Positions 31,640 through 34,242 of a DNA stretch of 64,000 nt are shown here, one piece after another. The notes under the pieces were generated by a model. It was not told where the DNA came from. It was given only the letters and a program-made list of their open reading frames with translations, and ran no database searches. The DNA is from Gammaproteobacteria bacterium HGW-Gammaproteobacteria-2. Lineage in GTDB: Bacteria > Pseudomonadota > Gammaproteobacteria > Xanthomonadales > Xanthomonadaceae. The position numbers and the translations under genes are program-made. Numbering within the stretch: the first letter of the stretch is position 1; each line of letters begins with the position of its first letter. Location: contig PGZE01000027.1 in the NCBI GenBank assembly GCA_002840015.1, forward strand, positions 1-64,000, written 5' to 3'.

Positions 31640-34242
31640 ATGCAAGAATCCTATCAACCCCAGGCCGTTGAGGCCGCCGCCCAGGCATTCTGGTCGTCGC
31701 AGCACGCATTTGCGGTCAAGGAAGACCCGTCACGCGAAAAGTTCTATTGCCTGTCGATGTTGCCGTACCCCTCGGGTGCGCTGCACATGGGGCATGTGCG
31801 CAATTACACCATTGGCGATGTGATCAGCCGCTTTCAGCGCATGCAGGGCAAGAATGTGTTGCAGCCGATGGGCTGGGATGCGTTCGGCCTTCCGGCGGAA
31901 AATGCAGCGATCAAGCACAAGACCGCGCCGGCGAAGTGGACCTACGCCAACATCGAGCACATGCGCGAGCAGTTGCAGTCGCTGGGTTACGCGATTGATT
32001 GGTCGCGCGAGTTCGCCACCTGTCGGCCCGACTACTACCAGCATGAGCAGCGCATGTTTGTGCGCCTGTTCAACAAGGGGCTGGTGTACCGCAAGCATTC
32101 GCAGGTCAACTGGGACCCGATCGATCAGACCGTGCTCGCCAACGAGCAGGTGATCGAGGGCCGTGGCTGGCGCTCGGGCGCGCTGGTGGAAAAGCGCGAG
32201 ATTCCGCAATGGTTCCTCAAGATCACCGATTACGCGCAAGAACTGCTTGACGGCCTGGATCAGCTCAATGATTGGCCGGAGTCGGTCAAGACCATGCAGC
32301 GCAACTGGATCGGTCGCTCCGAGGGTCTGGAGATCGCGTTCGCGGTGGAAGACAGTAGCGAAACGGTTCGCGTGTTCACCACGCGTCCGGACACGCTGAT
32401 GGGCGTGAGTTACATGGCGGTGGCGGCCGAACACCCGCTGGCGCAGCGCGCCGCAGCAAACAATGCCGAAGTGGCGGCGTTCGTGGCGGAATGCCAGCGC
32501 GGTGGCGTTTCCGCGTTGGAGCTCGAAACCCAGGACAAGAAGGGCGTCGCAACGGGGCTGTATGCGTTGCACCCGATCAGCGGTGAGCGGGTGCCGATCT
32601 GGGTAGCCAATTTTGTGTTGATGGGCTACGGCACCGGTGCGGTGATGGCGGTGCCGGGGCACGATCAGCGCGATTTCGAGTTTGCACACAACTACGAGTT
32701 GCCGATCAAACAGGTCATCGAGCCGCTCGAAATTGTCGCGGCCCGAAGGGCGCTCGATGAAGGCGTCCCATTTGCGGCGGACGTTGACCGCCTGGGGGAC
32801 CAAACTCCCAGAGATACTGTGCCCGAAGCTAATCGCCATGTTGTCGAGCAGTCGATAAAGAACTTTGAGCTTAGGTGTTCCAAAGAAGCGATCACTGAGT
32901 ATGGTTTGTGCGTCAATTCCGGCGCCCTCGATGGCCTCGATTATCGTGCTGCTTTCGACAAGGTCGCCGAACTGCTCGGCGACAACGGCGAGCGCCGGGT
33001 CAATTTCCGCCTGCGCGACTGGGGGGTGAGCCGACAGCGTTATTGGGGTTGTCCGATTCCGATGATCCTGTGCCCGGTCTGCGGTGATGTGCCGGTACCC
33101 GAATCGCAGTTGCCGGTGGTATTGCCCGAGGACGTGGCGTTCATGGGCACCGGTTCCCCGATCAAGGCCGATCCGCAATGGCGCAAGACCACCTGCCCGA
33201 AGTGTGGCGGCGCGGCCGAGCGCGAAACCGACACCTTTGACACCTTCATGGAGTCGAGCTGGTACTACGCGCGCTACACCAGTCCGGGTGCTGCAGACAT
33301 CATCGATGAGCGTGCCAATTACTGGTTACCGGTGGATCAGTACATCGGTGGCATCGAGCACGCGATCCTGCATCTGCTGTATTTCCGCTTCTTCCACAAA
33401 TTGTTGCGCGACACCGGTTTCGTGCACAGCGATGAACCGGTCAAACGCTTGCTGTGCCAGGGCATGGTGGTGGCCGACACCTTTTACCGGCAGGGCGACG
33501 ACGGTAGTCGCGAGTGGTTCAATCCGGCCGATATCGACATCAGCCGCGATGAGCGGGGCCGTGCCATTGGCGCAATCCTGCGCGCCGACGGGCAGCCGGT
33601 AGCGATCGGCGGCAGCGAGAAGATGGCCAAGTCCAAGAACAACGGCGTCGATCCGCAGAGCATGGTCGGCAAATACGGCGCCGATACCGTGCGCCTGTTT
33701 TCGATGTTCGCCGCGCCACCCGAGCAAAGCCTGGAGTGGAACGAGGCCGGCGTCGAGGGCATGTCGCGGTTTCTGCGTCGGCTGTGGGCGCCAGCGACGA
33801 TATCAGTCGGCGTTACACATTCAATACCGCCATCGCCGCGATCATGGAACTGATGAACGCGTTGGCCAGGTTTGAAGATGCCAGTGCGCAGGGCAGGGCC
33901 GTACTGCAGGAAGCGTGGGAAGCGGTGGTCCGGATGCTCAATCCGATCACCCCGCATATCGCCCATGCGCTGCATCAGGCGCTTGGTCACGGCGAAACCC
34001 TGATTGAGGATCTGTCATGGCCGGTACACGATCCGGCGGCGTTGCAGCGCGATTCGCTGACGCTGGCAGTGCAGGTAAACGGCAAACTGCGTGGTCAGAT
34101 AGCGGTTTCCGTCGATGCGCCGCGTGAGCAGATCGAGCAACAGGCGATGAACGAGGAATCGGTTGTCCGCTATCTGGAGGGGTTCACGGTGCGCAAGGTG
34201 ATCGTGGTTCCGGGCAAAATCGTCAACATTGTCGTAGGCTAA
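31640..34242 (+). pseudogene. leuS: leucyl-tRNA synthetase, frame broken near 33.8 kb
   Basis: HMGH at residues 49-52 and KMAKS near 661 (the KMSKS loop) are intact, as are the CP1 editing domain and a zinc ribbon ([10 protein letters not shown] ... CPKCGG). At about 33795, after RFLRRLW, the frame departs from the family and stops at 33853. The family resumes in another frame as [17 protein letters not shown] and runs to TAA 34242 (VRKVIVVPGKIVNIVVG). About 36 residues expected between the two parts are missing, so about 110 bp are lost. The gene is normally essential, which makes an assembly error more likely than a real pseudogene. An unusual insertion lies in the editing domain (see findings). 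Confidence 0.88.

Follow-up and report, generated by a model that had tools for sequence, protein, structure and literature searches.

leuS is an essential gene, so a real deletion within it would be remarkable. The draft genome of Gammaproteobacteria bacterium HGW-Gammaproteobacteria-2 (G000) raises exactly this question: in the 64,000-nucleotide stretch that we analyzed (positions 1 to 64,000 of contig PGZE01000027.1; here, the window), leuS is split between two reading frames. The identity of the gene is clear, as its 737-aa frame scored 974.4 bits against the bacterial LeuRS profile TIGR00396 (leuS_bact), compared with a curated cut-off of 548.4. Its gene order is also that of an ordinary bacterial leuS, with downstream genes that by eye resemble lptE, holA, nadD, and rsfS. 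It differs from an ordinary leuS in its broken frame in the assembly and in a long loop where the genus has a short one. TIGR00396 aligned in three pieces, the last of which (profile positions 691 to 842) lies in another frame, and profile positions between 662 and 691 were matched in neither frame. LeuRS homology ends at the 33789/33793 junction and picks up again in a different frame, in a 3′ open reading frame (ORF) that matches positions 21 to 144 of the 148 in the Anticodon_1 profile; no single uninterrupted frame runs through the anticodon-binding domain in the assembly.

Comparison with congeners defined the lesion to the base. The alignment to G002 is free of gaps through 33789 (base 3560 of locus L026) and again from 33793 (base 3673), which confirms the frame change that the initial annotation had placed within 33770 to 33830. 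Its estimate of about 36 lost residues was accurate (109 bp, or 36.3 codons, a length not divisible by three), and the missing bases do sit in the anticodon-binding region that it had named, where the anticodon-binding domain begins. The alignment to G001 likewise lacks this stretch in the window (2 versus 111 bp); G001, G002, and the LeuRS profile all contain it. The open leuS frame is 872 aa long in G001 and 883 aa long in G002. A single leuS is listed for each of G001, G002, and G003, with that of G003 spread over two contigs: contig C72 (10,544 bp) ends, on its last base, at residue 715 of the G002 protein, and contig C4 begins at residue 668. The assembly gap in G003 leuS overlaps part of the stretch that is missing from the window. 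The two G003 parts differ in their identity to the window, at 81.5% for the part on C72 (L119) and 91.7% for the part on C4 (L125).

Outside the junction, leuS closely follows that of G002. Amino acid identity of the 5′ part was 97% and 95% on the two sides of the loop, and DNA identity was 93.9% and 92.5% in the two blocks before the junction and 92.9% after it. Only two structural differences from G002 were found in the gene: the junction, where the frame is lost, and a loop segment of 193 bp in place of 103 bp, where the frame is kept and which the initial annotation had not mentioned (Table 1).

Table 1. Parts of leuS and clean deletions relative to congener G002 in the window
Feature	Position	Strand	Basis
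leuS 5′ part (catalytic and editing domains), frame intact	31640..33789	+	ORF 31640-33853, TIGR00396
leuS loop segment following the editing domain, 65 residues, in frame, 193 bp versus 103 bp in G002	32719..32911	+	DNA alignment
leuS junction with loss of frame, 3 bp versus 112 bp in G002 (109 bp missing)	33790..33792	+	DNA alignment to G002 and G001
leuS 3′ part, other frame, rest of anticodon-binding domain and C terminus	33793..34242	+	ORF 33736-34242, Anticodon_1
pmbA junction, 74 bp missing versus G002, frame lost	1112..1113	+	G002 alignment
ispA (FPP synthase) 3′ end, 143 bp missing, last 17 G002 residues unmatched	2554..2556	-	G002 alignment
mipA-type gene, 225 bp missing, multiple of three	4328..4332	+	G002 alignment
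rimO, 64 bp missing after residue 405, frame lost	21237..21237	+	G002 alignment
ORF with ScyB-type dehydrogenase match, 81 bp missing at start, multiple of three	54731..54734	+	G002 alignment

Lesions of the same type recur across the draft. When 542,808 bp of G000 were compared with 942,066 bp of G002, 23 clean deletions were found in G000 versus 1 in G002 over 240,929 aligned bases (two-sided binomial P = 3e-6). The window holds six of the 23, and other contigs are affected as well; the net sizes of the deletions range from 61 to 245 bp (median, 90), and their junctions carry few extra bases or none. At one of the 23 (C75:6271), the overlap is 49 bases long, as is typical of a tandem repeat and not of a clean join. 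The genes affected, which are unrelated and conserved, encode EF-G, RimO, PmbA, MipA, ClpB, NtrC, UvrC (twice), and a TraB-type protein in addition to LeuRS and the end of FPP synthase. Among the deletions that fall in or at named genes, the frame was kept (multiples of three) in 4 of 13, close to the one third expected by chance, and in 3 of 10 once deletions touching an ORF end alone were set aside. The 13 leave out an XrtA-ATPase-type ORF with a 77-bp deletion over its start (4 of 14 if included), and two ORFs with fully internal deletions were uncounted, having no NCBIfam match at 1e-60. In a smaller data set, 8 of 87 matched G002 ORFs lay in at least two pieces in G000, compared with 2 of 88 in the reverse direction. 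The EF-G gene on contig C5 is also split between frames; the G002 segment missing from it encodes the DTPG motif, which was absent from the three G000 frames read. Since contig C11 carries a second EF-G-like gene, open over 717 aa, the EF-G lesion by itself is no proof.

The excess of deletions in G000 rests on the G002 comparison. The comparison with G003 was balanced, with 2 clean deletions in each genome over 55,368 aligned bases; that with G001 gave 2 in G000 and 1 in G001 over 30,232 aligned bases, and that of G002 with G003 gave 1 and 3, respectively, over 30,244 aligned bases. Pairs with G003 and G001 are more diverged and their alignments shorter, so the deletion filter is less powerful there. 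Two losses in G002, of a 3.4-kb and a 751-bp stretch, fall outside the filter count. In a control for frame preservation, small gaps in ORFs were multiples of three in 13 of 52 and 8 of 41 cases and, after filtering, in 3 of 8 and 2 of 3. The stability of five deleted segments was also assessed by folding with DNA parameters, each against 400 random controls. Hairpin drop-out was rejected as a general cause, as pmbA alone was unusual (3% of controls as stable, versus 26% for leuS); hairpins account for the pmbA site at most.

The part of leuS beyond the break is still under selection. Relative to G002, dN/dS was 0.053 before the loop (359 codons), 0.015 between the two lesions (292 codons), and 0.065 after the frameshift (149 codons), with dS of 0.25 to 0.40. 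All three aligned pieces are thus under strong purifying selection, and because the part after the break is among them, the break must be either very recent or not real.

Because several other housekeeping genes of the G000 draft lack similar chunks, the break in leuS is most likely an assembly error. We therefore consider it highly likely that the frameshift is an artefact, present in the file and not in the cell, and we infer a technical origin for the joins; in the organism itself, leuS is very probably ordinary and intact. Approximately 109 bp would have been dropped where an assembler or scaffolder joined two pieces, and candidate steps are gap closure that drops unknown bases, joining across very short overlaps, or the formation of chimeras during amplification. 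The same type of join recurs on other G000 contigs and breaks other housekeeping genes. Wrong assembly was one of three options offered by the initial annotation, and it is the one that the one-sided excess against G002 favors; a second leuS and a product made as two chains, the other two, were not supported. Spurious pseudogenes are known to result from genome assembly, with the assembler, platform, and coverage influencing their number (Cooley and Wright 2024, PMC11017572). The leuS case resembles those in that frame-broken genes arise from assembly and not from evolution, but whole chunks of 61 to 245 bp are missing here, whereas the abstract of that study treats frameshifts and internal stops generally. 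No description of a case like this broken leuS was found among the titles and abstract openings of the literature considered. For the G000 draft itself, the consequence is approximately one clean chunk deletion for every 10 kb of sequence alignable to G002, despite ratings of 93% completeness and 0.4% contamination, and claims of gene loss, pseudogenes, or split genes that are based on it need checking against reads.

Among the alternatives, the one that fares best, although we consider it unlikely, is a real deletion in a variant that is recent or in the minority among the cells sampled, whose lineage would be dying or mixed, and that was chosen by the assembler. Such a variant would fit the clean junction, with its 3 extra bases, and the purifying selection seen along the whole of leuS, and the assembly gap in G003 at the same place could reflect polymorphism. 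However, the same account would be needed for most of the 23 sites, in many genes. A second, intact leuS in an unassembled part of the genome could also keep the cell alive, but this is very improbable. Searches with Anticodon_1, TIGR00396, the window protein, and the intact G002 protein found no further copy in the 3.31 Mb of the assembly (3,311,024 bases in 110 contigs; completeness, 93.08; contamination, 0.4), and this locus alone was matched as LeuRS; other matches were weaker, partial, and in genes resembling those for ValRS, IleRS, and other class I synthetases. The congeners list a single copy each. Since the genome is rated 93% complete, the absence of a second leuS is not absolute.

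We give almost no credence to a LeuRS that is made as two chains, or through recoding, without the 36 residues. Both parts of the gene are conserved and the 3′ part is open from a GTG at 33736, but the missing stretch is conserved in G001, G002, and the profile, lesions of this type also disrupt unrelated genes, and recoding cannot supply residues that are absent from the DNA. The LeuRS of Aquifex aeolicus is likewise spread over two reading frames; it is reportedly split within the editing (CP1) region and loses no residues. The break in the window lies instead in the anticodon-binding domain, away from that division, and where an Aquifex-type arrangement has all LeuRS residues across two complete genes, 112 bp of G002 are absent here. 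The two-subunit Aquifex enzyme is the subject of Xu et al. 2002, which PMC9976931 cites. For the population truly to carry this leuS, two chains would have to assemble without the first anticodon-binding helices, and EF-G and other housekeeping genes would have to be broken alike, which we regard as extremely improbable. Finally, a contig that is a mosaic of two strains is not supported, as identity to G002, calculated in bins of 250 bp, does not switch consistently at the leuS junctions, even though it varies among the aligned blocks near the first junctions (96.5, 89.8, 96.2, and 91.6%).

The loop segment upstream of the junction has a less certain origin. It is single copy in its own genome; among 395 family genomes searched, its DNA had no match in the other 394, and among 369 class genomes, its sense peptide had no match in the other 368. 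By sequence, it shows a weak similarity to the long loop present in LeuRS of other Xanthomonadales. Its length of 65 residues is the commonest among the long loops of the LeuRS loci collected and is shared with 17 of 78 distinct other LeuRS loops, of which 34 are 64 to 67 residues long. The best pairwise score was 56, a value reached by 0 of 200 shuffles (shuffled maximum, 52), and the tail of the loop resembles LeuRS (0 of 500 shuffles reached its score; TIGR00396 aligns from 32846). A profile built from the 34 long loops gave a score on the segment that 7 of 2,000 shuffles reached, with the top shuffles and three short loops scoring higher. The segment may be a long-type LeuRS loop, recombined as an allele from an unsampled donor, or it may be another wrong join in which the frame was kept by chance. 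The antisense frame is open and has a slightly better local codon use score than the leuS frame (-2.2 versus -6.7). An origin from part of a foreign gene on the opposite strand was nevertheless rejected, as the antisense peptide had no match in Pfam, in viral contigs, in plasmids, or in the other 197 of 198 family genomes.

The loop that follows the editing domain is highly variable in the genus (compared at L026, about 2580 to 2682, and L027): against the 65 residues here, it is short in G002 and G003 and shorter still in G001. In G002 and G003, it contains a small in-frame, palindrome-like CCCTCTCCCGG..GGGAG element. Elsewhere in the window, the 3.4-kb stretch absent from G002 (36477 to 39921) lies between two 22-bp repeats near a G002 contig end and contains an ORF that by eye resembles RsfS; its absence from G002 is perhaps a repeat collapse. 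At 18636 to 19386, the window has 751 bp, by eye a putative hydrolase-type gene on the minus strand, versus 94 bp in G002. Two intergenic segments (23437 to 23542 and 29935 to 30210) carry dispersed repeats of the type CCCACAGGGTGGGCTCC and are strongly different among the congeners.
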